Shown here piece by piece: positions 2,519 to 16,491 of a stretch of 40,287 nt of DNA. The notes beneath the pieces were generated by a model. It had not been told where the DNA came from, did no database searches, and was given only the letters and a program-made list of their open reading frames with translations. A program made the translations under genes and the position numbers. Location: IMG/VR virus record IMGVR_UViG_3300030838_000024, positions 1 to 40,287 of that record; one strand, 5' to 3'. Within the stretch, counting starts at the first letter, position 1. Each line of letters starts with the position of its first letter. The stretch comes from a virus.

Positions 2519-2568
2519 ACATTCTTGATTTTTGTTAATTTACTAAAAACATTTCTGTCTTCATTAAA

Positions 2569-2643
2569 TTAAGATACTTTATTTTCAACCTCATTTTTAA
2601 TAGCTTCAATAATCTCTTCATTACTAAATGATACTATTATCAC
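2569..2643 (-). CDS. Possible 24-aa peptide
   Basis: A GTG-started frame with GAAGGTGG 9 nt upstream, beginning 24 nt after the stop of 2668-2895. It encodes an acidic amphipathic peptide (I-I-V-S-F-S-N-E-E-I-I-E-A-I-K). The ribosome site supports it, but the length is near the limit of what reading alone can justify. It could be a chance frame before the terminator. Confidence 0.35.
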   Translation of the reverse strand: MIIVSFSNEEIIEAIKNEVENKVS

Positions 2644-2667
2644 ATTTTCATACCACCTTCTAATTAT

Positions 2668-2895
2668 TTATAAACTAATTGTATTCTCACATTCTATTTT
2701 AGTTACTCTAAAACCATAATTCCATTGTATTTCTTCTAAAAAATTATCTTTTTCAATTTCATCACCTATTTTGCATTCTTTGATTACAATATCACAGATT
2801 TTATTAAATGCATCATTGGTTATGTATTGATCATTTAAAAGATATATAATCTCACTTGTCTTTTCTTTTTGTAAAATTAATTTATATAAATACAT
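2668..2895 (-). CDS. Hypothetical protein, 75 aa
   Basis: Mixed alpha/beta small protein, not recognised. The start is taken at ATG 2895 because AAAGGG lies 9 nt before it. The longer frame to 2946 has no ribosome site. Monocistronic or paired with the possible peptide at 2569-2643. Confidence 0.7.
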   Translation of the reverse strand: MYLYKLILQKEKTSEIIYLLNDQYITNDAFNKICDIVIKECKIGDEIEKDNFLEEIQWNYGFRVTKIECENTISL

Positions 2896-3035
2896 ATAAC
2901 CACACCCTTTCAAATCCCATATTACTATTATACCATTAATTTGCAATTAATATACCTATTTATTAATACTGTTTATATTAATTTATTATCATTCTTATAG
3001 CATGTGAGTTTTATAAAACTCTTAATATAAGATCA

Positions 3036-3056
3036 GAGAAGGTATATTGCCTTCTC
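3036..3056 (-). terminator. Hairpin downstream of 3061-3771
   Basis: A 7-bp stem, GAGAAGG with CCTTCTC, starts 5 nt after the stop codon. The following sequence is AT-rich without a clean T-run, so termination may be weak. Confidence 0.45.
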
Positions 3057-3060
3057 ACCT

Positions 3061-3771
3061 CTAAGCAGTTTTTACAACTTTAAAATTATTATCCATAAAT
3101 TCAATAATGTTGTTTAATAACTCATAACCATCTTTAGTTTTACATCCATTAAAACTCTTATATAGACTATAGATATAATCTTCATCTTTCATGAAATCTA
3201 CACTGATTGAATTTATACATTTGTTATGTTCTTTATTGCTATACACCCCTATATTAAAGCAAAATGATGTAATATATTTCCCGTCATTGCCAGTGCTACC
3301 GTATGGCTTAATATAATTTTCTGTTTTACCATCATATTTACTATTTAAAAATTCTTTAAATCTATCATTAATTGAACCTTCGGCGTAGAAAAAATCATGA
3401 GTCATTATTCCTATATTATATGTCCTATTTATATTGCACGTATAATCCCTGAATTCCATTTGTGGCTCACTATAATCAACCAAGCTAACTCCGTAACTTA
3501 ATTCTTCTCCATGACTTCCTTCTTCATCTGGAACATCTAAAAACAATGTCCATTGAACTCTTCCTTGTTTACCACCATTTATATTTTCTATGTTCCACAT
3601 TCTTATAGTAAATTCACTATCTTCACATTTAAAAAATGTTCTTGAATCATAACATTCTATAATAGTAACATCTTTATCTACTAACCCGTATTTCTTCTTC
3701 ATTGGCGTTTTGTTTATTACCTTCTTTACTAGTTGTTCTAATTCCTTACTTTCAGTTTTTTTAATTATCAT
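3061..3771 (-). CDS. Hypothetical protein, 236 aa
   Basis: Not recognised. The N-terminal 30 residues are a basic helix. The rest is beta-rich with many aromatic residues (for example T-I-R-M-W-N-I-E-N and R-V-Q-W-T-L-F-L-D), no membrane segment and no catalytic motif I can name. ATG start behind AAAGGAGATAG. It sits alone between the GIY-YIG gene and a hairpin, with a TGGTATAAT extended -10 about 50 nt upstream. Confidence 0.75.
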   Translation of the reverse strand: MIIKKTESKELEQLVKKVINKTPMKKKYGLVDKDVTIIECYDSRTFFKCEDSEFTIRMWNIENINGGKQGRVQWTLFLDVPDEEGSHGEELSYGVSLVDYSEPQMEFRDYTCNINRTYNIGIMTHDFFYAEGSINDRFKEFLNSKYDGKTENYIKPYGSTGNDGKYITSFCFNIGVYSNKEHNKCINSISVDFMKDEDYIYSLYKSFNGCKTKDGYELLNNIIEFMDNNFKVVKTA

Positions 3772-3902
3772 ATTCTCTATCTCCTTTTAATTGCATTTAC
3801 TTTAATTTCGAATCTTATAATATTATTATACCATAATATTGAAATTATATACCTTGTTTTATTATTATTTATTTTAATTTATTTTAATTTATTTATTATG
3901 TA

Positions 3903-5318
3903 TTAAATTGCTTGTCCTAAATTTTCATTATGTAATAATTCTTTTTGTTTTATGTATTCATCAGAATATTTCCATTTCAAAGGTGTTCCATCTTCTAATT
4001 TACCACAATAAATTCTTGTTCCATTACAACATGAGTTTATATGTCTATAAGATATTATTTTGTAATATTCTCCTGCTTCTTTAATCGTATTAAATTTTTT
4101 ATTTGTAGTAACGCAAACATATTTTTCTTTACAATATACAATTGTTTTTGAATCATATGTATAATCTTGATTATACAATTCTTTTAATTTGTTTTCTATA
4201 TCATATTTTATGTATTCTTCAGGAGTTAAATCTTCTATGTATTTCCATTGTAATTTTGTTCCATCAAATAGTTTTCCACTATATTTTTGTTTCCCTTGAC
4301 AACAATTTCCTATATGAGCATTATCTATATGATAAAATTTCCCAGCTCCTGCGATAGAATTAAAAACAATATTAAATGTTGTACAAATCACTTTTTTCTT
4401 AACTTCTTTTTTAATATAATTTTCTATATTCATTTTTTTAATACTATTTATTTTATTTTGAATATCTATATCTGTCATATGTATATAATCTTCATAATAA
4501 GCCCAAATCAATCTTGTTCCATCAGGAAATCTACCCGATGTTGATTGTAATCCCCTGCAACATTTTCCTATCGTTCCACTGTCTTTTCTAAAACCACAAT
4601 AGGTATTGGCATCACCTATACTTAAAAATATTTTTCTATTGTTAAGACAAACTACCTTTTTAAATTGTACATTTAGTTCTATATCTTCCATTCGTTCTTC
4701 CGCTTTATGTATTGTATAATCATTTAAGTACATCCATACCATTTTTTCACCTGTAATTGGATTTAATCCTGCATATCTATATTCTCCTTTACATGCTAAA
4801 CTAATTGTTTTTCTGTCTATATTATATTTTTTACCAGCTTGTTTAAGTGATAAAAAGGTTTCATTTGTGTTAACACATATAACAGGTAAAGATACTTCCA
4901 ATTTAGATATTCTATTTTTATTTTTAGATTCCTCAGTATGTTGAAATCCACAACCACTTCCACCGCCAATATTTTTATTGTATCCATATTTCCTATTATC
5001 AGAATCATAATAAGAAATCCAACATTGCTCTTTGATATTTAATTCTTCTTGGGAAAAAGCAATATCAAATACTTCTACTATTTCAAAAGCTTTAAATCCA
5101 TGTGTTTTTATAGAACTTAATAAATGTTTATTTGCGTCTAATTTTCTTTTTAATCTACCTTTATGGTAATTATATACTCTTTCAATTCCTGTACCTTTGT
5201 AATTATATCTTTTATAAAAACCACCTTCTTGTGCGGTTTGTCCAATATAAACTTTGCCATTAACAATATTTGTTATTCTGTATATAATCCCATACACTTC
5301 TAAATTCCCTATTTTCAT
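3903..5318 (-). CDS. GIY-YIG homing endonuclease with NUMOD/IENR-type repeats, 471 aa
   Basis: The N-terminal 100 residues hold a GIY-YIG nuclease domain: G-I-I-Y near residue 10 and V-Y-I-G-Q-T near 23. At least three further units follow (about 225-460) with the pattern F-x-S-I-x-x-A-x-x-Y/F ... C-C-x-G ... S-G-x-x-x-D-G-T-x-L-x-W, typical of DNA-binding repeats of phage homing endonucleases. Such enzymes cut a recognition site and promote spread of their own gene. The start is the ATG at 5318 behind GAAGAAGGTG; the frame remains open to 5390. It shares its first residues (M-K-I-G-N-L-x-x-Y-G-I-I-Y-R-I-T-N) with 35366-36427, so the two are paralogues. Confidence 0.9.
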   Translation of the reverse strand: MKIGNLEVYGIIYRITNIVNGKVYIGQTAQEGGFYKRYNYKGTGIERVYNYHKGRLKRKLDANKHLLSSIKTHGFKAFEIVEVFDIAFSQEELNIKEQCWISYYDSDNRKYGYNKNIGGGSGCGFQHTEESKNKNRISKLEVSLPVICVNTNETFLSLKQAGKKYNIDRKTISLACKGEYRYAGLNPITGEKMVWMYLNDYTIHKAEERMEDIELNVQFKKVVCLNNRKIFLSIGDANTYCGFRKDSGTIGKCCRGLQSTSGRFPDGTRLIWAYYEDYIHMTDIDIQNKINSIKKMNIENYIKKEVKKKVICTTFNIVFNSIAGAGKFYHIDNAHIGNCCQGKQKYSGKLFDGTKLQWKYIEDLTPEEYIKYDIENKLKELYNQDYTYDSKTIVYCKEKYVCVTTNKKFNTIKEAGEYYKIISYRHINSCCNGTRIYCGKLEDGTPLKWKYSDEYIKQKELLHNENLGQAI

Positions 5319-5381
5319 GTCTGCACCTTCTTCTATTAATTTATTGCCAAACCATATAAAGTTAATTATTTTCAAATTTAA

Positions 5382-5401
5382 GGGAAGCAATTATACTTCC
5401 C
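5382..5401 (-). terminator. Weak hairpin after 5428-6186
   Basis: GGGAAG and CTTCCC pair around an 8-nt loop, between the RNase H-like gene and the GIY-YIG gene. Only TTAAATTTG follows on the minus strand, so it is a weak terminator or attenuator at best. Confidence 0.35.
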
Positions 5402-5427
5402 ACATTACCTATAAATAACCCATTTAT

Positions 5428-6186
5428 TTATAATTTGTACCCTAATTTACTTAAAGCATAAAATACTGCACATATTCTTGTACTTGTAACTTCCATTGAT
5501 TTTCTTTTAAATCTAAGTCTTCCATCACATGTTACATCAATATCTGTATTATCCAGTTCTCTAGATGTTTTTATAAATTCAATCATATCATCACTTGAAC
5601 AATTGTTTGGAATTAATTTAAATAATGTGTCTTTATCATTGATAAGTTTTGCATTGTTAACAGCTATATATCTCATATCATCTAAATCTAATTCAACAAT
5701 ATTAGCAAATCCTTTTTCTTGAAGATAATCTACAACTGCTTGACCTATATTTATAGTTGGTATAATAATTTTACAATTATCAATTCCTTTTATTGATTCT
5801 ATCAATTTATCAGCAATATCTTCTAACTTATTTCCAGTAATTTTAATAAATCTAATTATTTTTAATTCTGAATTGTTGTTCTCTTCGAATAATACTCCAT
5901 AATTTGTTCCTTCTCTAGATACATCAAAAGATAAATAATAATTCTTACCACTTGGAATATCACTACTATAACTAATTCTTATATCATTATTAAATATAGT
6001 TTTAACTCTATTATTTGTAACATTGTCCATTGATGTAATTATTTCCACTTCGATAGTTTCGTCTCCATATTGACTCTTTTTAATTTCTCCTATGTATAGA
6101 TTATCAATGTCTTTCAACTTTAGCATTTTGCCAAAATCACCTTTTGTAAAAAATACTTTTGCTTTTCCTAATTGTGTACTGTTCAT
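5428..6186 (-). CDS. Protein resembling the terminase large-subunit nuclease (RNase H-like) domain, 252 aa
   Basis: From about residue 80 the order Y-L-S-F-D-V-S-R-E-G-T-N-Y-G, then a helix (L-E-D-I-A-D-K-L-I), then I-G-Q-A-V-V-D-Y-L, then R-L-R-F-K-R-K and a final A-V-F-Y-A-L helix follows the layout of C-terminal nuclease domains of phage terminases. The first Asp is present. The second usual Asp is Thr here (P-T-I-N-I-G), so activity is doubtful. No ATPase domain is present or adjacent. ATG start after AAAGGATG; a short hairpin sits just before the ribosome site. It could be an unrelated RNase H-fold protein; the family call is inference. Confidence 0.5.
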   Translation of the reverse strand: MNSTQLGKAKVFFTKGDFGKMLKLKDIDNLYIGEIKKSQYGDETIEVEIITSMDNVTNNRVKTIFNNDIRISYSSDIPSGKNYYLSFDVSREGTNYGVLFEENNNSELKIIRFIKITGNKLEDIADKLIESIKGIDNCKIIIPTINIGQAVVDYLQEKGFANIVELDLDDMRYIAVNNAKLINDKDTLFKLIPNNCSSDDMIEFIKTSRELDNTDIDVTCDGRLRFKRKSMEVTSTRICAVFYALSKLGYKL

Positions 6187-6339: not shown

Positions 6340-6768
6340 TTATTTCTTTTCTTTAAAACTTTCAACTGAATCTTCCTTAATAATATCATCAATTATTTTA
6401 ATTAATTCTTCTATCTCACTAACAGTTAATTCAATACTATCATCTGCATTAACTTCATCTTTTAACTTTACCAACTCTTCTTTTATTAATAATTTTCTAT
6501 TTTCTTCATAATCGACATGTACTCTATTCATTACTCTTTTATAAAAATCACTATATCTTTTACCTTCTGATTCATATTCAGACATTTTGCCAGCTTGTTT
6601 TAATTTTTCAACTAAATTAAAATCTTTAGGATATCCTATAGTTTGATTTGGATTCGTTTTAAATTCATTAATTTCATCTCTTAGTTTATCAAGTTGATAA
6701 GTTCTTATATAATCATACATTGCATCAAATATTTTTATGTCCTCTTTACTTAATATTTTTTCACTCAT
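6340..6768 (-). CDS. Helical, highly charged hypothetical protein, 142 aa
   Basis: Almost entirely Lys/Glu/Asp-rich helix with a coiled-coil tendency at residues 85-142 (K-E-E-L-V-K-L-K-D-E, then E-I-E-E-L-I-K-I-I-D-D-I). A short G-Y-P-K-D-F-N segment breaks it near residue 45. No known family. ATG start behind GGAG. Confidence 0.7.
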   Translation of the reverse strand: MSEKILSKEDIKIFDAMYDYIRTYQLDKLRDEINEFKTNPNQTIGYPKDFNLVEKLKQAGKMSEYESEGKRYSDFYKRVMNRVHVDYEENRKLLIKEELVKLKDEVNADDSIELTVSEIEELIKIIDDIIKEDSVESFKEKK

Positions 6769-6816
6769 TTATATATCTCCATTCTTTTTAATTTATTAAT
6801 TATTCTTAGCTGTTTT

Positions 6817-6957
6817 TCAAACTTGTACATTAAATTTAGCTACTATTGGCTTAGATTGTTTTGTATTACCTACCGTATAATAGATTTCAACAGTATTTTT
6901 ATCTATGTATACTGGTTCTTCAAAACTAACGTTAATTGATAATTTACTTGTATCCAT
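6817..6957 (-). CDS. Small beta-type protein, 46 aa
   Basis: Short frame with AGGTGAG 7 nt before the ATG. The sequence alternates hydrophobic and polar residues (L-S-I-N-V-S-F, V-E-I-Y-Y-T-V) and so probably forms a small beta sheet. It lies 48 nt before 6340-6768 in the same direction. Function unknown. Confidence 0.6.
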   Translation of the reverse strand: MDTSKLSINVSFEEPVYIDKNTVEIYYTVGNTKQSKPIVAKFNVQV

Positions 6958-7044
6958 ATTTCTCACCTACTTATATTTAATATTAATACATTAATTTGTT
7001 GTTATCAATATTTTCTTTGGAATATTTTTCTAAATTTATTTATA

Positions 7045-7088
7045 AGAGAGTTTTGATTATTCAATTTTTAAACTTCCATTTACTCTCT
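7045..7088 (-). terminator. Inverted repeat between 7171-7290 and 6817-6957
   Basis: AGAGAGT (7045-7051) and ACTCTCT (7082-7088) can pair across a 30-nt loop. A similar GAGAGTAA/TTACTCTC repeat occurs at 9156-9195. No clear T-run follows. Confidence 0.3.
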
Positions 7089-7170
7089 CATACTCCAGTT
7101 TACTCCGTTTTTCAAACATAAAAACCCTTTAAAATTTCCCTTTTACTTAAAAATTGTTATATTAATTTAT

Positions 7171-7290
7171 TTATCTCGTATATGTTTTAAATATTTCATT
7201 TTCTCTAATCTCGCATTTAGTTTGTAGTCTACAAAGCGATACAACGAATAATACTGTAAAACTTATTATTATTCCTAAAATTATTAACAT
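7171..7290 (-). CDS. Single-pass membrane peptide, 39 aa
   Basis: Residues 1-20 are a hydrophobic segment (L-I-I-L-G-I-I-I-S-F-T-V-L-F-V-V) followed by a basic, polar tail. The AGGGGG ribosome site is strong. The layout fits a small membrane protein or toxin-like peptide; no homologue recognised. It follows 7304-7420 by 13 nt and is probably co-transcribed. Confidence 0.6.
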   Translation of the reverse strand: MLIILGIIISFTVLFVVSLCRLQTKCEIRENEIFKTYTR

Positions 7291-7303
7291 TATTATTTCC
7301 CCC

Positions 7304-7420
7304 TTATTTGATTATTTTTATCTCATATAGAGTTTCATTATCTATATCATTAACTGTATGTAGCCCTAATAACTTATCTAATACTATTAACCCTATTACT
7401 ATCAATATTCCTTCTAACAT
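7304..7420 (-). CDS. Small membrane peptide, 38 aa
   Basis: A hydrophobic segment at residues 4-18 (G-I-L-I-V-I-G-L-I-V-L) is followed by an acidic then basic tail. AAGGAAG lies upstream, overlapping the stop of 7427-8074, so translation is probably coupled. It pairs with a second tiny membrane peptide downstream. Confidence 0.6.
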   Translation of the reverse strand: MLEGILIVIGLIVLDKLLGLHTVNDIDNETLYEIKIIK

Positions 7421-7426
7421 CTTATC

Positions 7427-8074
7427 TTACACGCTTCCTTTCTTCCTATTTATTAATTTTACAAATTTCTCTTGTTCATTTAATTCATATTCTGCATAAG
7501 ATTTTGATACTGAATTTATTAAGTGTTGCTTTTGTTGTAATGATTTATATTTAATTTTAACAGTGATTCCTTTTATCTTAGGCAATGTATCAGTTATTCC
7601 ATAAATATGATCTTCATTAACTTCAATAATATTATCTTTATGTTCATGTGAAGGGCTTCTCATATATTCTACTTTTAATATTTCGTCCACTTCATTCAAT
7701 ATATCACCGTTCATTTGTAATTGTCTTTTGTGATATCCGTTTTCATAATTCAACTGGGTTAAATGATTATCTTGATTACTTATTTTCTTTTCTTGTACTT
7801 GAAATCCACCTAGTTGTCTAACTAGCATTTCCATTGTTTTTAGTTCATTCTTTGCCTCTCTCCGAGCTTGTCTAAGTTTTTGTAATGACTTCGCTAGTTG
7901 CCACCCTGTATATAAATCGAATTTCCCTAATCCTTCTATCTTATGTAGTAAATCTTGTTGTACATCATTAAAGACTTTTTCTTTTATCTTAAGTTTATTA
8001 TAATATTCTTTAGCTTCTATGATATTTGTATTAATTTGATTAGCGTAACTTGTAGCTTTACACAATTTAATCAT
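7427..8074 (-). CDS. Coiled-coil hypothetical protein, 215 aa
   Basis: Residues about 15-100 are helical and basic (Q-L-A-K-S-L-Q-K-L-R-Q-A-R-R-E-A-K-N-E-L). Residues 125-185 look beta-rich, then a final helix. Not recognised. The ATG at 8074 is only 1-2 nt from AAAGGA; the TTG three codons in (8065) has ideal spacing and may be the real start. First gene behind the promoter at 8116-8144, followed by two membrane peptides. Confidence 0.75.
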   Translation of the reverse strand: MIKLCKATSYANQINTNIIEAKEYYNKLKIKEKVFNDVQQDLLHKIEGLGKFDLYTGWQLAKSLQKLRQARREAKNELKTMEMLVRQLGGFQVQEKKISNQDNHLTQLNYENGYHKRQLQMNGDILNEVDEILKVEYMRSPSHEHKDNIIEVNEDHIYGITDTLPKIKGITVKIKYKSLQQKQHLINSVSKSYAEYELNEQEKFVKLINRKKGSV

Positions 8075-8115
8075 TTCCTTTCTTTATATATTAATTTGTT
8101 TTGTATTATATATTA

Positions 8116-8181: not shown

Positions 8182-9120
8182 TTAGTCCGTTATTTCAACT
8201 TTATAGTTAATCATAGCTATGTATAGGTGTTCAGGAATCTGATCTTTATAATCATTTGCTACTTGCTTAATTCGATTTTCCTTAAATTCTTTATAAGATT
8301 GAAATGCTTCTATTTTAGTATCAAATGTCCCAAGATATATACTTTTATTATTCTTATCTGTGCCTTTTGCTCTAATTTTCCCATCTTTCTTATTTAAACT
8401 AACACCAATAGGAAAATCCCCTCTATAATTCTTTCTATTAATAAACAAATTATTTATCCTTTCTGGAACAAAACAACAAGTATCAGGTGAATATATTTTA
8501 TTTCCCTTAATTAGAATATCTTTATCAAGACACATTTTCTCTCCTTCTATCTCATAATAATTTTCTTTATACCAGCGTACAAAATTCTCAAAATTGTACC
8601 ATTCTTCTGCTACAATACAATCTTTATATGTAGGATATTTTTCTTTATACTTTTTACTATAACATCTAGTCATCATACTATTCCACTTATAGTATTCTTT
8701 ACTTGTACTATTGTTTTCGTTTAAAACACTTACCTTATGGGCAATTCTATTAGTACAATTACTAACTTTTCCTTTTTTAAAATTGTCATATTGCGTTTTA
8801 ACTCTATATCCACCTTCAAATTCAACTATAATATTTTGTGTATTAATGTACTCTACAATAGTCATTTTAATACCATGATTGTTATATTTTACTTCTCCAG
8901 TTCTATCAATAAGACATGCCCTTTTAGAATTTTGTTTTTCATAGTCTGAATTTTTTATTAATCCTCTTTTAAAATTATTATATGTTTTATTATAAGATAT
9001 GTAACCATCTTCAAACTCAATATCTACATCGTTACATCCTCGATATTCTTTAATCCACATCCTTAGCCCTTGAGTGTTAATATTTTCTTCACCTATTCTA
9101 TTTAATAATTTTTCTTTCAT
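8182..9120 (-). CDS. HNH/AP2-type homing endonuclease, 312 aa
   Basis: Two tandem copies of a short beta domain (about residues 8-56 and 71-119; each ends V-x-F-E-x-G-Y ... Y-x-N-F-K-x-G). An HNH-like core follows (about 143-225: W-x-S-M-M-x-R-C-Y, W-x-N-F-x-x-F, L-D-K-D-I-L, G-N-K-I-Y-S-P-x-T-C-x-F-V-P), then an AP2-like DNA-binding segment (about 232-275). The start is ATG 9120; AAAGGAG lies before it and would fall inside the longer TTG frame. It is paralogous to 15532-16491. It probably spreads as a mobile endonuclease gene between phage genes. Confidence 0.85.
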   Translation of the reverse strand: MKEKLLNRIGEENINTQGLRMWIKEYRGCNDVDIEFEDGYISYNKTYNNFKRGLIKNSDYEKQNSKRACLIDRTGEVKYNNHGIKMTIVEYINTQNIIVEFEGGYRVKTQYDNFKKGKVSNCTNRIAHKVSVLNENNSTSKEYYKWNSMMTRCYSKKYKEKYPTYKDCIVAEEWYNFENFVRWYKENYYEIEGEKMCLDKDILIKGNKIYSPDTCCFVPERINNLFINRKNYRGDFPIGVSLNKKDGKIRAKGTDKNNKSIYLGTFDTKIEAFQSYKEFKENRIKQVANDYKDQIPEHLYIAMINYKVEITD

Positions 9121-9155
9121 TATTTTTCTCCTTTTCAATTTACTTTTAAACTAAC

Positions 9156-9195
9156 AAGAGAGTAATTCCAAGATTTCTCCCAGTCTTACTCTCTT
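9156..9195 (-). terminator. Hairpin after the peptide gene
   Basis: A perfect 10-bp inverted repeat, AAGAGAGTAA (9156-9165) with TTACTCTCTT (9186-9195), 20-nt loop. It lies between the 39-aa peptide gene and the HNH gene. Only a short T-rich tract follows on the minus strand, so it is a terminator or a binding site. Confidence 0.5.
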
Positions 9196-9223
9196 ATTGA
9201 TACCGACTTCTAATTAATAATGA

Positions 9224-9343
9224 TTATCCACGGTCAGAAGGACCAGCCCATGCAACTAATGTAGTAACGATCATTGATGTAATTATTATAGCCATCATCA
9301 TAAAGTATTTAACTCTAGCTTTTGTGTTTTTGCTTATCTTCAT
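9224..9343 (-). CDS. Secreted or membrane peptide precursor, 39 aa
   Basis: Basic N-terminus (K-I-S-K-N-T-K-A-R-V-K), then a hydrophobic stretch at residues 14-33, then a short C-terminal tail A-G-P-S-D-R-G. A very strong GGAGAGGTG ribosome site is present. The layout, export signal plus a short polar tail, matches precursors of RRNPP-type signalling peptides (Phr, NprX, PapR, AimP), whose mature 5-7-mers come from the C-terminus. It lies 93 nt after an all-helical gene in the same direction. It could also be a small toxin; signalling is inference. Confidence 0.7.
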   Translation of the reverse strand: MKISKNTKARVKYFMMMAIIITSMIVTTLVAWAGPSDRG

Positions 9344-9377
9344 TTTTGTTCACCTCTCCTCCATATGTACTATTAGC

Positions 9378-9392
9378 ATAAGATTTACTTAT
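9378..9392 (-). promoter_or_regulatory. Inverted repeat upstream of the peptide gene
   Basis: ATAAG and CTTAT flank 5 nt, about 35 nt before the peptide start. TTTACA and TATGCT-like boxes overlap it, so a weak separate promoter with an operator is possible. Confidence 0.3.
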
Positions 9393-9436
9393 ACTAAATT
9401 GTAAATATGGAAGAAATTATCTTTTGTTTATTTAAT

Positions 9437-10090
9437 TTAGCTTACTTTATTATTTCTTTTTTCTTCTTCTTTTAATAACAATACATTTTTATATAATGCA
9501 ACATCTGTTTTTTTAATTTCTTTTTCAAAACATTCAAATTGATCTTGATATTGTTTATTATTGTTATGTAATAATATGTCCATTATTTGTAGGACAATAT
9601 TATCATTACGCTCTAGCAAACTTATATTAAATTTTGCTGTTAATTTATTAAAATAACCCATTGTATCATTTGGAGTGCATGTTTTAAACGCATCATAATA
9701 TTCCTCATATGCTTTTATTTTCTCCTCATTGCTCAATTCATCTTTATAACTATCTATATAATTATTAAGGGCTTTACTATACTTGTGTTTATTCTCTTTT
9801 TTATAATTAGGAATTGAATTCAATTCATCTAATAGTAATTTCGAATGTAATTTTGCTGATTGTAAGTGTTCAGGCTTTTTGGTTAATAGTTCTGCCACAA
9901 CTAATCCATTTAATAACAATCTCCTGTTTTCTATTTTTTTTAATTTGTCGTGCATTTGAAGAAATAATTTTTGTAATTCAATTATTGCTTTATCTATATC
10001 ACCTTTTTTACCATTAACCCCGTCCCAAATATCATATGCCTCATCTAATTTCTTTTTAAATAGTCGTTCAATGGCATCTTCATTTATCAT
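9437..10090 (-). CDS. All-helical, possibly TPR-like protein, 217 aa
   Basis: Predicted almost wholly alpha-helical by inspection, with repeated helix pairs (I-E-L-Q-K-L-F-L-Q-M, Y-S-K-A-L-N-N-Y-I, K-I-K-A-Y-E-E-Y-Y-D-A-F) that look like degenerate tetratricopeptide units. No HTH is seen. It lies 31 nt after the MazF-like gene and before the 39-aa peptide gene. By position it could be a peptide receptor, a toxin partner or neither; it is shorter than Rap/AimR receptors (about 380 aa). AAAGGGG is the ribosome site. Family not established. Confidence 0.7.
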   Translation of the reverse strand: MINEDAIERLFKKKLDEAYDIWDGVNGKKGDIDKAIIELQKLFLQMHDKLKKIENRRLLLNGLVVAELLTKKPEHLQSAKLHSKLLLDELNSIPNYKKENKHKYSKALNNYIDSYKDELSNEEKIKAYEEYYDAFKTCTPNDTMGYFNKLTAKFNISLLERNDNIVLQIMDILLHNNNKQYQDQFECFEKEIKKTDVALYKNVLLLKEEEKRNNKVS

Positions 10091-10121
10091 CTTAATGCAA
10101 CCCCTTTAATCCTCATATATT

Positions 10122-10892
10122 TTACATGACTACAGATTCATCTCCTGTTTTATATATTTTATAATAATCTCTATAGTCTAATCCATTTTCTTTACAAATG
10201 TCTTCTAGTTCCATTAAAAATATTTCTCTTTCTTCTAATAAATGTTTGACTAAACTTTCAGTCTTTCTTCTTGCTATGGCTTTTTCATAAGTGTGTATGT
10301 CTTCTAATTTTTCTTCTAATCTAATTCTTATTTCTTTATTTAATTTCTCCAATGGCGTTTTCTCTTTTAAATCTCCTAATTGAATGTTTCGGGCATTATC
10401 TATGCGTTTCATGGTCAATTCGTCCACAGTACCAACATAAGTAAGCAAATCATATCTAACGTCTATAGTTGTTATTTGTTCTGTAAGAACTAGAGATTTT
10501 TCTTTTAAACCAAAATTCTCAATCTCGACGTGAACAGGAATATTAGCTTTTGACGATACTTTGCTTGTGATTGGGAATCCATTTACGATAGTTGAATATT
10601 GATTACTTAAACTATTTGAGGTTATTAAAAATGGACGTATATTACATTGGCAACTACCATTCCTTTTCCCTAAATTAACATACCAAATTTCACATCTTTT
10701 TGCTCTTTTAATCTCTCTATATTTTGTTTCGTTATTTAATTTATTATTACTATAACTACTCATTAGTTGATCAATTCTTTTGGTGTCCACAACTCCTCCT
10801 TTATTTGGAACATCATTTATAGCTATTTCTTTTTCTGCCAATTTATCTCTTAATTCTTTTAATCTATTATCATTTTCTAATAAAGTTAGCAT
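10122..10892 (-). CDS. MazF/PemK-like toxin-domain protein, 256 aa
   Basis: Residues about 64-170 form a MazF/PemK domain: R-C-E-I-W-Y-V-N-L-G at the start, I-R-P-F-L-I-T-S-N (Arg86), P-I-T-S-K (Thr109) and the L-T-E-Q-I-T-T-I-D strand. The Arg and Thr used by MazF RNases are kept. Unlike ordinary MazF (about 115 aa), it has a 60-residue helical N-terminal extension and a coiled C-terminal tail (170-240). No MazE-like gene is adjacent; a helical gene follows by 31 nt. The start is ATG 10892 behind GGAAGGTGG, not the longer TTG frame. Three tandem promoters precede it. RNase activity is inferred. Confidence 0.85.
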   Translation of the reverse strand: MLTLLENDNRLKELRDKLAEKEIAINDVPNKGGVVDTKRIDQLMSSYSNNKLNNETKYREIKRAKRCEIWYVNLGKRNGSCQCNIRPFLITSNSLSNQYSTIVNGFPITSKVSSKANIPVHVEIENFGLKEKSLVLTEQITTIDVRYDLLTYVGTVDELTMKRIDNARNIQLGDLKEKTPLEKLNKEIRIRLEEKLEDIHTYEKAIARRKTESLVKHLLEEREIFLMELEDICKENGLDYRDYYKIYKTGDESVVM

Positions 10893-10982
10893 TACGACCA
10901 CCTTCCGCTTAATTAATTCCTTCTTAATTTCCAATTAAAATTACTTTTTTATATACTTTAATTTGTTTCATCTCATGTTTAA

Positions 10983-11011
10983 ATTTTACTGCTAATTCCA
11001 TTTCTTGTCAA
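10983..11011 (-). promoter_or_regulatory. Promoter P3 of the MazF-like operon
   Basis: Minus-strand TTGACA and TAAAAT, 17-nt spacer. Closest of three tandem promoters, about 85 nt of leader to the ATG at 10892. An AAACAAATTAA element follows in the leader. Confidence 0.7.
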
Positions 11012-11083
11012 TACCTTTTTCCAATTATTTATAATTTATTTTTAACTTCTTTATTAATTTGTTTTGTCAATTCCTATATTCTT

Positions 11084-11112
11084 ATATTACTACTTATTTC
11101 CAAACCTGTCAA
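11084..11112 (-). promoter_or_regulatory. Promoter P2 of the MazF-like operon
   Basis: Minus-strand TTGACA and TAATAT, 17-nt spacer. It is similar to P3 in spacer (TGGAA then AG just before the -10), so the two may be duplicated units. Confidence 0.7.
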
Positions 11113-11173
11113 TAACCTTTTTAAATATTTTTTGTTTATACAATAATTTGTTTAATATCTTGTCCATGAGTTA

Positions 11174-11202
11174 ATAATACACCTACCTGAATACAATGTC
11201 AA
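11174..11202 (-). promoter_or_regulatory. Promoter P1 of the MazF-like operon
   Basis: Minus-strand TTGACA and TATTAT, 17-nt spacer. It lies immediately below the terminator of 11280-12437 and about 280 nt above the MazF-like start, with no gene between. Confidence 0.7.
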
Positions 11203-11245: not shown

Positions 11246-11278
11246 TATAAAAGAAAGACTAGAAATTACTTCTAGTCT
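11246..11278 (-). terminator. Strong terminator of the 13863-11280 operon
   Basis: A perfect 9-bp stem, AGACTAGAA with TTCTAGTCT, directly after the stop codon, followed on the minus strand by TTCTTTTAT. Confidence 0.85.
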
Positions 11279-11279
11279 A

Positions 11280-12437
11280 CTACTCTATATCAACAGCGTC
11301 AAAGCCGATTGATGCACAAATATCTTTAACTGTTTGATATGAGTTTGGATCTATTACTTTAAACTCTGCTGTTTTAGCTTTAAAACTTCCTGTTTGTCGC
11401 TTGATAACATTATCTCCAGTCAAACTCTCATATCTCTTTCTCATCATAGCGACTGATGTAGCATTAATTTTAGATTCATTGAAAATCTTAATTATAGCTT
11501 CAATATCATATGAACTAATCTTTCTCTCTTTTCTAATTTGTAATAATAATTCAAACTCTCTAGTAAATAATAAATCGTTAAAAGAAATTCTATCTATTTT
11601 TTCTGCATCTATTACTTCTTCTTTTCGTTTTTTATTTAATAATTTAAACGCAGTAAACACTCTACTATTTACAGTATTATAATTAGCTATTTCTCTCGTA
11701 TTAATTACATATGCGTCAGATTGGAATAATTGTTTTATTGATTCTTCTTCTACAATACTATCTACTTCTAATAAAAACTCTATAAATCTATCATCAATCG
11801 GCATCAATGTTATAAACTCTTCATTCTCATTATAAACACTGATAAATTTGTTTACTACATCTATATCTTTATATCTCAATCGTCTCATATAAATCACTTC
11901 TCTACCTAAAACACCATATCGAGCTAATAATAGTGGCTTTATATTTTCTGAACCAACACACTCTTTCATTTCTCTCATTAAACTATAAAATTCATCCATA
12001 TTGTATAATTTAGTTTGAAGTAGTTTTTTACTAGATTTTAGAGTCTTCATAGATTCTACTCCGGACAATGGGTTAACAGATATATCCCCTTTTTCAATAT
12101 AGTATTCAAAATACTTATTAACAAACAGTTTTATAGTTCCCATTGTACTCTCCATAGCATATATGAAGCTATTTAGCATAGATACTACTTCGTTACTCTT
12201 AAAGTCTTTTAAATCTTTATTTTTAGCAACTTCATAATCATGGATATTGTTATTATAAACCGACCATAAAGGCTTTTTAGTTATTTCGTCCTCATAAGTA
12301 TTATTTAACCACACAATCTTATCTATTTGAAATTGGTCATATTCACCTAAGATTCTTTGCTTTTCCTTTTCTGTTGCTTCAGGTGTATCTCTTTCGTATT
12401 TTTGACCTATAAATTCTAAATTTTCTTTAAGCAACAC
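11280..12437 (-). CDS. Tyrosine-recombinase-fold protein lacking the catalytic residues, 385 aa
   Basis: Residues about 80-125 resemble a core-binding (SAM-like) domain. Residues 165-200 (L-L-L-A-R-Y-G-V-L-G-R-E-V ... Y-K-D-I-D) match the start of the recombinase catalytic domain, where T-G-L-R-x-S-E is expected; the catalytic Arg position is Leu. I see no H-x-x-R-H box and no terminal Tyr. Inactive recombinase-fold proteins can be DNA-binding repressors, as with MrpR (YopR) of SPbeta. It overlaps the DGxHR gene by 11 nt. Start GTG 12437 behind GGAGGTG. The fold call is inference from motif spacing. Confidence 0.65.
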   Translation of the reverse strand: MLLKENLEFIGQKYERDTPEATEKEKQRILGEYDQFQIDKIVWLNNTYEDEITKKPLWSVYNNNIHDYEVAKNKDLKDFKSNEVVSMLNSFIYAMESTMGTIKLFVNKYFEYYIEKGDISVNPLSGVESMKTLKSSKKLLQTKLYNMDEFYSLMREMKECVGSENIKPLLLARYGVLGREVIYMRRLRYKDIDVVNKFISVYNENEEFITLMPIDDRFIEFLLEVDSIVEEESIKQLFQSDAYVINTREIANYNTVNSRVFTAFKLLNKKRKEEVIDAEKIDRISFNDLLFTREFELLLQIRKERKISSYDIEAIIKIFNESKINATSVAMMRKRYESLTGDNVIKRQTGSFKAKTAEFKVIDPNSYQTVKDICASIGFDAVDIE

Positions 12438-13863
12438 GTAGCACCTCCACTGTTAAATTTGCAAAATAATTATACACATCTTTATAATTACACGTATTTG
12501 GACTATTCTTTAATTTTAATTTTTTTAGTTCAGATTCTGGAATTGAATATATATTATCAACAATCTCATCTATCCTATTATAATCTCCTAGTACTCTCAT
12601 TGTATTTGCAATCGCAAGATAACCAACAAACATATTGCAGTCTAAAAGACTACTGTTATTTTTCATTTCTTCTATATCATCATTAAAATATTTAAATTTC
12701 AATGTATCAATTAATTCATCAATTGTTGAACCCAATTTTTTTGATATATCTCTAACTAATCCTTTTTTCTCTACAGGAATTTCGGTTAATGTTAAAGCAT
12801 CTAATAATATAGTTTTATAAGTTAACTTTCTTACCATTTTACGTTCTTCAAAATTTAATGCAATTTCGTCTTTTAATACTGTTGAATTCTCTTCAATTAA
12901 TTTCAAGAAATCTACATCATCGCCTTGTTTAAATCCTTTAATAAATTCAGGATTTGTATCTGATCTCTCGAATATTTGTCTGATTAATTCTTGAGCATCA
13001 GATAAACTTCTCAATACAACCCTAATATCTAGACCACCTTGTAATATAGCACCGTTATTTTGTGCTTTATACTGTTCTACAGCTTGATATACTGCTAACA
13101 TTCTATGAAAACCATCTAACATATCTATAACTGTGAAAGTCTCACTATCTAAATCATAATTCGGACTTACATATAAAGTTCCTACATTTGGGTATTTTTC
13201 TTCATCTATTGATTCATAATGGCGATTAGGTTCAAAATTTTCCTCTCCTTCAGCAAGTCTAATATTCACAATTATTTGAGTATCTTCTAATTTTTTGGTT
13301 TTAGACAATAATAAATTTGTCATTGCGTCAACATTTTTCTGATTAATATCAATAATTCTAACTGAATCGTCTTTAGTCCCTAACGATTTTGTCTTGTATG
13401 CTCTCTGAGATAATTTGTTATATCTGAATAGTACAAATTTAATATAATTATAGATTTGTTCATATGTGATTCGCCCAACATAGTTATAATTATCTACTTT
13501 TTGCATAAAAGGCAATACTACTTGTGTTACCTTCTTCTCTACATTAGTAAAACTATTATAGTCTAAAATATCTGTATCGCTAAAATATTTTCTATAGTTT
13601 AATTTTTCTAATGCTAAAACCTCATAGCAAACCTTAGTAATAGCAATTTTTTCTTCTTTAGATAATTTGTTTAATTTAACTGAACCGTCTAAAAACAATC
13701 CTGCTGTGATGTTTGTATTCAAATTCTTTTTAGCCAATTCTACATTAATTGATTTAATCAGCCCTTTATTTTTAAATTCTTTATTAACCACATTTTCTAA
13801 TTCTTTATTTAAATTGTCCTGACTATAAATCATGACTTCTTGTTGTCCTTGTTTAAGTTCCAT
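12427..13863 (-). CDS. DGxHR (ParB/DGQHR-like) protein, 478 aa
   Basis: Residues 247-260 read I-D-M-L-D-G-F-H-R-M-L-A-V-Y, the signature of ParB/DGQHR-type domains (usually DGQHR or DGHRR), with a helix after it and the partner region D-I-R-V-V-L-R about 30 residues later. Such domains occur in ParB CTPases, the DndB family and phage nucleoid proteins. The N-terminal 240 residues are unassigned; the C-terminal 150 residues are helical. Start ATG 13863 with GAAGGAG. First gene of a two-gene operon with the recombinase-fold protein; the pairing suggests segregation or repression, not proven. Confidence 0.75.
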   Translation of the reverse strand: MELKQGQQEVMIYSQDNLNKELENVVNKEFKNKGLIKSINVELAKKNLNTNITAGLFLDGSVKLNKLSKEEKIAITKVCYEVLALEKLNYRKYFSDTDILDYNSFTNVEKKVTQVVLPFMQKVDNYNYVGRITYEQIYNYIKFVLFRYNKLSQRAYKTKSLGTKDDSVRIIDINQKNVDAMTNLLLSKTKKLEDTQIIVNIRLAEGEENFEPNRHYESIDEEKYPNVGTLYVSPNYDLDSETFTVIDMLDGFHRMLAVYQAVEQYKAQNNGAILQGGLDIRVVLRSLSDAQELIRQIFERSDTNPEFIKGFKQGDDVDFLKLIEENSTVLKDEIALNFEERKMVRKLTYKTILLDALTLTEIPVEKKGLVRDISKKLGSTIDELIDTLKFKYFNDDIEEMKNNSSLLDCNMFVGYLAIANTMRVLGDYNRIDEIVDNIYSIPESELKKLKLKNSPNTCNYKDVYNYFANLTVEVLRVA

Positions 13864-14025: not shown

Positions 14026-14316
14026 TCATTTGGTAATTTTAATTCTTATGACTCTCTTGCCATATTCCAATATTAATATTTCATCTATGTAGTCACATTT
14101 TTTAAAGCTATCATTCTCTATTTCTATATCCATTATACTAATTCCTATAGTACCCCAGAAATCTTTAGCCTTACACAGTAGATTTTGTCTATTCTCTTCT
14201 ATTAATAGATTTTTATTATTTTGTTGAGCCATGAAAATATAACCTAGTATATTATCTACATTTATTCCTCTTTCTTTATTTTGTATTTGTTTAATTTTTT
14301 CTACTCTCATTTCCAT
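14026..14316 (-). CDS. Hypothetical protein, 96 aa
   Basis: Not recognised. The N-terminus is a basic helix, followed by mixed alpha/beta sequence. ATG start behind AAAGGGGTG. It is a single-gene unit between the promoter at 14393-14420 and the hairpin at 13951-13996, divergent from the HTH gene at 14595. Its position on the other side of the divergent control region suggests it is a target or partner of that regulator. Confidence 0.7.
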   Translation of the reverse strand: MEMRVEKIKQIQNKERGINVDNILGYIFMAQQNNKNLLIEENRQNLLCKAKDFWGTIGISIMDIEIENDSFKKCDYIDEILILEYGKRVIRIKITK

Positions 14317-15531: not shown

Positions 15532-16491
15532 TTAATCATCAATATCTACTTCATATCTATACATTGAATCATAAAGTTTCTTCGGTATTTTATCTTTATA
15601 ATAATCTGCTACTTCTTTAATGTGTTTTTCCTTATATACTTTATATCTTTGAAATGCTTCATTTTGATCTGAATATGAACCAAGATAAACTTTATTATTT
15701 AATAAGGTATTCCTACATGTTGATATAAACTTACCATTATCATCATCAAAATATACCCCTATGGGATATTTTCCTCTTGCTTTATCACATTTAGTAAATA
15801 AACTATTAATTTTTTGTGGTACAAATACACATGTTTCTGGAGAGTATATTTTATTTCCTTTACATAGAATATCCTTATCCAATGCCATAATCTCATTATT
15901 TATTTCATAATAATTCTTTTCGTACCACGTTGCAAAGTTTTGGAAATTATGCCACGATTTATCTGCTACGCAATATTTATAAGTTGGTGTTTTTAATTTT
16001 TGGTTCTCATTGTAGCATCGGGTCAGCATGCTTTTCCATGTCATAAATTGCTTATTATATTTTAATTTAGAATAATCAACATGATATTTACCCTCTCCTA
16101 AGTAGCCTATATTAAATACAAATTTGTGATATGGGTTTATAATAGTCCCTAGTTTAAAACTATTATAAGTTTTATGCTTTACAATAATACCATCTTCGAA
16201 TTTAACATTTATATCGTTTTGATTTATATAGTTGATTATTTCCATTTTTTCATTTACTTTATTATAATTTGTTTCACCCGTTCTATCTTTAAATTTATTT
16301 AGTAATGCACATTCTGGGCATCCATGACCACATAACAAGTTTAATGGAATAGATTTCCATTCATGATTACATGACTTGTCCTTTACTAAAATTTTAGTTG
16401 TGCTATTAATATACTCTTCGATCACCTCAATATTCGGATTAATAACAAACATTTCTTCTTTAAATTGTTCTGTAGTTTTTCTTTTCCCCAT
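15532..16491 (-). CDS. HNH/AP2-type homing endonuclease with zinc ribbon, 319 aa
   Basis: The N-terminal zinc-ribbon-like unit (C-N-H-E-W ... C-G-H-G-C-P-E-C, residues 41-61) precedes one copy of the beta repeat seen twice in 8182-9120 (residues about 68-118). An HNH-like core follows (M-L-T-R-C-Y, W-H-N-F-Q-N-F, L-D-K-D-I-L, Y-S-P-E-T-C-V-F-V-P), then an AP2-like C-terminus (K-Y-P-I-G-V ... V-Y-L-G-S-Y). Start ATG with AAGGAGAAG. It is an intact mobile-type endonuclease inserted at the edge of the control region. Confidence 0.85.
   Translation of the reverse strand: MGKRKTTEQFKEEMFVINPNIEVIEEYINSTTKILVKDKSCNHEWKSIPLNLLCGHGCPECALLNKFKDRTGETNYNKVNEKMEIINYINQNDINVKFEDGIIVKHKTYNSFKLGTIINPYHKFVFNIGYLGEGKYHVDYSKLKYNKQFMTWKSMLTRCYNENQKLKTPTYKYCVADKSWHNFQNFATWYEKNYYEINNEIMALDKDILCKGNKIYSPETCVFVPQKINSLFTKCDKARGKYPIGVYFDDDNGKFISTCRNTLLNNKVYLGSYSDQNEAFQRYKVYKEKHIKEVADYYKDKIPKKLYDSMYRYEVDIDD

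Follow-up and report, generated by a model that had tools for sequence, protein, structure and literature searches.

A MazF, helical-protein and small-peptide cassette behind the repressor operon of SPbeta-like elements, and its possible role as a peptide-gated toxin switch

The virus record IMGVR_UViG_3300030838_000024, whose 40,287 bases (GC 25%) are referred to here in full as the window, carries on its minus strand a cassette of three genes for a MazF-domain protein with long terminal extensions, a 217-amino-acid (aa) helical protein and a 39-aa peptide precursor. The cassette lies directly behind a YopQ-MrpR repressor operon of the SPbeta type, and the same genes stand in the same order in three further elements. 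Our tentative reading is that, in these SPbeta-like elements without a detected AimR, the repressor operon is joined to a MazF toxin switch gated by a peptide. An earlier note on this DNA, made from the letters alone, had proposed a peptide-sensing circuit that controls a toxin RNase. That proposal appears to stand in part: the unit exists, its peptide gene is open, and it belongs to the SPbeta group, in one phage of which, phi3T, arbitrium is reported to work via MazF. The tetratricopeptide repeat (TPR) fold proposed for the helical protein, in contrast, found no support.

The cassette and its setting

The unit and the operon ahead of it, in the order of transcription, comprise the following features. 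The parts from promoter 1 to the final hairpin all lie where the earlier note had placed them; what it had missed is the setting behind the repressor operon.

12427..13863, minus strand: YopQ-like gene, 478 aa, first part of an SPbeta-type repressor operon (phrog_5732, E 3.7e-29)
11280..12437, minus strand: MrpR/YopR-like master repressor gene, 385 aa, a degenerate tyrosine recombinase
11256..11278, minus strand: terminator-like hairpin 3' of the repressor gene
11174..11202, minus strand: promoter 1, TTGACA-17-TATTAT, with counterparts in the three relatives
11084..11112, minus strand: promoter 2, TTGACA-17-TAATAT
10983..11011, minus strand: promoter 3, TTGACA-17-TAAAAT
10122..10892, minus strand: MazF gene, 256 aa from ATG, extended by 63 aa at the N-terminus and 83 aa at the C-terminus (PF02452, E 9e-20)
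9437..10090, minus strand: helical protein gene, 217 aa, candidate peptide receptor and/or MazF antitoxin
9224..9343, minus strand: peptide precursor gene, 39 aa, cationic-hydrophobic, tail AGPSDRG
9153..9198, minus strand: hairpin at the end of the unit (-21.5 kcal/mol, z -3.71)

The YopQ-like protein matched SPbeta yopQ in tblastn at E 2e-11, the alignment covering 53% of the query at 25.8% identity. The MrpR-like protein matched MrpR_N (PF22822) at E 6e-5 and 24 bits, just below the 27-bit cut-off, as well as the integrase family phrog_5830 (E 6e-10), and is 18-20% identical to YopR of five phages. MrpR is described as the master repressor of SPbeta (PMC10516654). The order YopQ then MrpR is that of SPbeta, phi3T and four other phages.

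Relatives of the cassette were reached by scanning viral contigs with an alignment of six MazF sequences, which returned 271 stretches, of which 169 were confirmed as relatives and 80 MazF loci were kept. Besides the locus of the window itself, the 80 include three new elements that carry the whole cassette, on contigs of 116.6 kb (L057), 229 kb (L058) and 115 kb (L059). In each of them a YopQ-like gene, an MrpR-like gene, MazF, the helical protein and a small open reading frame (ORF) follow one another as in the window, so that the YopQ-MrpR pair lies directly upstream of the cassette in all four elements. The pair was found in the four by hidden Markov models (HMMs) built with these elements' own members included; the window's pair was also matched independently by PF22822, PHROGs and tblastn. 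Scans with single MazF proteins returned the own element or nothing, and the three relatives were reached by the alignment scan only. Sought in neighboring genomes, as the earlier note had suggested, the MazF-helical-peptide triplet thus recurs in three divergent elements in the same order.

The components of the cassette also occur together. Among the fetched MazF loci and the phage loci, matches to an HMM of the helical family were confined to the four cassette elements, the HMM having been made from the same four members and many of the other loci being short stretches. The C-terminal extension of MazF was present in 4 of the 80 MazF loci, exactly the four with the helical gene, as judged with an HMM made from three of its four carriers. 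The helical gene was absent from all 18 loci of a YopQ scan of viral contigs other than the own element (17 other records). Open-access literature in PubMed Central contained no cassette of this kind among the matches listed. One short contig (L077, positions 2536-5734) has a MazF gene without the extension shortly before YopQ-MrpR; the order differs there, and no helical gene is present.

The MazF gene and its leader

Translation of MazF probably begins at the ATG at 10892, giving 256 aa, and not at the TTG of the 270-aa ORF, because the ATG has a good ribosome-binding site by eye. An Arg and a Thr of the window's MazF line up with those of two solved MazF relatives and with residues of Bacillus subtilis MazF that we take to be catalytic. 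Both are invariant among the proteins of the window, L057 and L059, the latter two each being 40% identical to the first; in the alignment of six MazF sequences the Arg is found in all six and the Thr in five. The MazF stop is followed by the start of the helical gene after 22-31 nucleotides (nt) in all four elements.

Three sigma-A-type promoters had been claimed ahead of MazF, and all three TTGACA sites with 17-nt spacers were recovered in a leader enriched for them. The pattern TTGACA-N16-18-TANNAT has six matches in the 40-kb window against a shuffle mean of 1.33 (1 of 100 shuffles reached six), and three of the six fall in the cassette leader. With TTGACN-N17-TANNNT, the four leaders hold 3, 3, 2 and 2 sites, ten promoters in which every spacer is 17 nt; the shuffle mean is below 0.01 per leader and in no leader did any of 2000 shuffles attain the count observed, for a pattern picked after the sites were known and shuffles that preserve single-base content only. 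Several of the spacers (window 10983-11202 and the leaders of L057-L059), for example in L057, look imperfectly palindromic by eye and are perhaps operators of one shared regulator. A search for further copies of the leader in the rest of the contig gave AT-rich noise as its best rows. At the other end of the unit, a hairpin stands 3' of the peptide gene in all four elements.

The earlier note had seen no MazE, and this holds: no same-strand ORF of more than 25 aa ends in the leader between the promoters and MazF. Nor did the scanned neighboring genes match any antitoxin family in Pfam or PHROGs.

The small peptide gene

The 39-aa ORF has a strong Shine-Dalgarno sequence, a cationic N-terminus and a hydrophobic core. 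The 112-kb contig has 1191 start-stop pairs of 25-65 aa when nested starts are counted separately. Only 2 of them lie outside larger ORFs and passed a filter for a Shine-Dalgarno sequence, a cationic start and a strongly hydrophobic segment, and the codon score was positive for the 39-aa ORF only (0.12, against -0.16 for the other). A small cationic-hydrophobic ORF, putatively exported, begins 37-93 nt 3' of the helical gene in all four elements. A Shine-Dalgarno-led ORF of this kind at most 150 nt downstream was found for five of 130 genes tested (100 aa or longer, from the contig and the loci of the three relatives), and four of the five are the helical genes; this filter was fixed after the peptides were known and is looser than that used for the 39-aa ORF (hydrophobicity 1.8 instead of 2.0, lengths from 22, additional Shine-Dalgarno patterns).

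The peptide gene is present with an open frame in all three relatives, a point on which the earlier note had been prepared to give up its proposal. The four precursors are 39, 34, 33 and 29 aa long, that of L057 being counted from an inner ATG with the better ribosome-binding site (the outer ATG gives 40 aa). They share similar hydrophobic cores and differ in their short tails, AGPSDRG, AGSIGRG, ATTGSKG and SSGNGWG, each of which ends in Gly. A scan of viral contigs for AxAGPSDRG followed by a stop gave five stretches, and the four outside the own element resemble chance matches.

The helical protein

The homologs of the 217-aa protein in L057, L058 and L059 are 220, 215 and 211 aa long and 33, 28 and 23% identical to it. 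The window's protein matched no Pfam or PHROGs family at E 0.01 and nothing in PADLOC, and its one match in NCBIfam was far under the cut-off. Searches with all four proteins returned noise only in Pfam and PHROGs (best E 0.026 and 0.033) and nothing better than E 0.04 among solved structures; no DNA-binding family was recognized in the protein with Pfam and PHROGs. Exact-peptide scans of viral and genome contigs with the 217-aa protein found only its own element, tblastn found no relatives of it in phages or in plasmids, and the L057 homolog against plasmids and the L058 homolog against phages gave no match. Judged by these comparisons, the helical protein is a new family without a match in the libraries searched.

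The low-confidence structural model of the protein was also compared with known structures. Foldseek placed ComR first, at E 0.29, and VIA-align placed PlcR at rank 10 (Z 6.0, 105 residues, 4.5 Å) among unrelated rows; neither is counted as evidence. Nothing in a viral structure library matched the model at E 0.001 or better.

A proposed mechanism and the evidence that weighs against it

We propose the following course of events. Two or three strong promoters would let host RNA polymerase transcribe all three genes of the cassette. MazF would be restrained by the helical protein, probably via the extra C-terminal helices of MazF, which were found only beside the helical protein. The precursor would be exported and cleaved, and its last five to seven residues would accumulate outside and then re-enter cells, where the tail peptide would be sensed by binding to the helical protein and would alter its grip on MazF. 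Freed MazF, presumably a toxic RNase, would cleave transcripts and shift the element between lysis and lysogeny, in the way reported for host MazF in phi3T. For that phage, control of the host's MazF by arbitrium has been reported: MazF is freed or blocked via the receptor (a transcriptional antiterminator), antitermination and small inhibitor proteins; free MazF is reported to promote lysogeny (PMC10769878). The logic of the cassette is best read as the same, condensed into one operon. It is possible, if doubtful, that a toxin RNase is here under the control of a phage pheromone acting by protein contact and not by transcription, that the helical proteins are a new receptor family, and that the tails have diversified so that each element hears its own kin.

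Several observations weigh against this reading. The helical proteins, at 211-220 aa in the four elements, are shorter than the 250-500 aa given for RRNPP receptors (PMC10075063), and no TPR family in Pfam, nor any RRNPP family, matched them. No profile similarity to AimR was seen (hhalign E 0.61), and comparison with a TPR consensus gave a hhalign P of 0.23, where AimR in the same test gave 0.0026. The best score of a TPR signature within the 217-aa protein was matched by 160 of 300 shuffles. Of the earlier note's claim of a helical TPR receptor, what stands is the all-helix prediction, from a single-sequence model of low confidence (predicted local distance difference test, pLDDT, 52); no similarity to TPR proteins, RRNPP receptors or AimR was seen in these comparisons. 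The single-sequence model of MazF is poorer (pLDDT 40), its domain having failed and usable helices appearing at the C-terminus only. In the window's MazF, the loop before the Arg reads GSCQCN, whereas its kin have GSEQGG, and in L058 the MazF domain and the N-terminal part lie in different frames (L058:4733-5591), which could reflect a sequencing error, decay of the gene or a programmed frameshift. The tails also differ in composition among the elements, SGNGWG being unlike GPSDRG.

The distribution of MazF bears on the same point. Four phages, Geobacillus virus E3, Perkons, a Staphylococcus phage and a Mammaliicoccus phage, have YopQ-MrpR and no AimR match. E3 carries two MazF genes, a little before its tail tape-measure genes, and Perkons carries one, about 11 kb from yopQ; the Staphylococcus and Mammaliicoccus phages have none. 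As MazF is present in only two of these four phages, and elsewhere in the genome, it is no strict substitute for AimR.

Alternative explanations

MazF and the helical protein may be a toxin-antitoxin pair in which the helical protein is a new antitoxin that simply neutralizes the extended MazF, serving stability, abortive infection or superinfection exclusion; the peptide would then be a membrane effector or a sensor of membrane damage and not a signal. The 22-31 nt between toxin and helical genes in all four elements, the tie between the helical gene and the MazF extension and a leader without MazE fit such a pair, and phages commonly encode small hydrophobic proteins of cationic character. 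We nevertheless consider this account unlikely. A cationic N-terminus leads one to expect the tail of such a protein outside, and in these peptides the cationic end is the N-terminus, so that the variable tail is expected to face outward. The tails differ in length and sequence but all end in Gly, and the cassette adjoins the lysogeny repressor in each of the four.

The helical protein and the peptide might instead control transcription, at the repressor operon or at the tandem promoters, with MazF a passenger or a regulated output. Common regulation is suggested by the two or three promoters in tandem and their similar spacers, and the arbitrium receptor of phi3T is reported to be a transcriptional antiterminator (PMC10769878). 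The lack of a recognized DNA-binding family in the helical protein and the way in which the MazF extension tracks that protein make this improbable. We regard as very improbable a scheme in which the processed tail binds MazF itself, as extracellular death factors do, with the helical protein as a chaperone or antitoxin displaced by the peptide. To our knowledge, the death factor peptides described so far derive from housekeeping proteins by cleavage and have no dedicated precursors, and the constant third partner here, adjoining the peptide, is the helical protein. The scheme does draw on the joint presence of MazF and peptide genes in all four elements and on reports that death factor peptides increase MazF activity (PMC5930309, PMC7616896).

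The element and neighboring genes

The window is identical to part of a 111,869-base IMG/VR contig (G001), except for the window's first 40 bases. Among the genes of G001 are one for an RNA polymerase related to YonO of SPbeta (phrog_8308, E 2e-232; 33.6% identity to the SPbeta protein), one for a protein of the tubulin/FtsZ family (PF00091, E 9e-10) and one for a replication-initiator-like protein (phrog_4402, E 7e-29). These genes lie on one phage contig, in two of its segments:

L015:16254-17336: tubulin-like gene
L015:19304 onward: replication-initiator-like gene
L016:6699-9527: YonO-like RNA polymerase gene

This combination of genes marks the element as an SPbeta-like phage that also carries plasmid-like genes, in keeping with the mobile element supposed by the earlier note, and it may have a plasmid lifestyle. 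YonO-like matches were found in G001 and in the records of L057 and L058 (interrupted by stops in the latter); none was found in the L059 record or in Geobacillus virus E3.

HNH endonuclease genes stand on either side of the repressor-toxin region, at 8182-9138 and 15532-16491 of the window. By eye, L057 has no HNH-like ORF directly 3' of its peptide gene, and in L058 a different ORF of 524 aa (6539-8113) fills the corresponding gap. A gene of 212-215 aa, similar by eye, lies further downstream in the window (7427-8074) and in L058 (8225-8863). All four cassette elements have, 5' of yopQ, a small gene whose 84-96-aa product begins with MEM:

window 14026-14316: MEM-start small gene
L057:1573-1830: MEM-start small gene
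L058:1514-1774: MEM-start small gene
L059:1670-1924: MEM-start small gene

Comparison with known systems

If the proposed reading is true, the cassette is a shorter version of the arbitrium-MazF circuit of phi3T, held in one operon beside the repressor; peptide communication among phages would have arisen with more than one receptor family, and SPbeta-like viruses may use peptide signals in a new way for the choice between lysis and lysogeny. With its three small genes, the cassette also allows a direct test of the unsolved part that MazF plays in lysogeny.

Should the inference hold, the cassette would work like arbitrium and the RRNPP systems. We did not file it under either, because AimR was looked for without success and the helical protein is shorter than the receptors. 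The AimR model NF038310 scored above its 70-bit cut-off in SPbeta c2 (SPBc2) and phi3T. AimR was not detected in the window's contig, L057, L058 or L059, records that may be fragments; in G001 the model reached only 16.6 and 15.2 bits, on a protein that by eye resembles two helix-turn-helix repeats. The cassette resembles arbitrium (AimR-AimP-AimX of SPbeta and phi3T) in belonging to an SPbeta-type phage, in the succession of a helical gene and a small exported-looking precursor, in adjoining the yopQ-mrpR operon and in having MazF as a working part, which in phi3T is the host's. It differs in that no AimR was detected, its partner protein of 211-220 aa has no recognized DNA-binding or TPR motif, it lies downstream of mrpR and not upstream of the operon, and its MazF is phage-encoded.

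With the RRNPP systems (Rap, PlcR, PrgX, ComR and related receptors) it shares, if the partner is a receptor, a small precursor adjoining a predicted all-helical partner in all four elements; unlike them, it has a partner below the range of 250-500 aa, without a TPR match and linked to a toxin. Candidates for the SEC-exported precursor of such systems are the peptides of 29-39 aa, each with a cationic start and a hydrophobic core. Its MazF domain, with the presumed catalytic Arg and Thr, recalls the MazEF type II toxin-antitoxin systems, from which it is set apart by the absence of a visible MazE, by long N- and C-terminal extensions and by a partner that lies downstream and is unmatched in the libraries searched. 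Like the extracellular death factor, finally, it would involve a short secreted peptide of a kind reported to act on a MazF, but in the cassette the peptide has a precursor gene of its own, which together with a helical gene stands beside a phage-encoded MazF.

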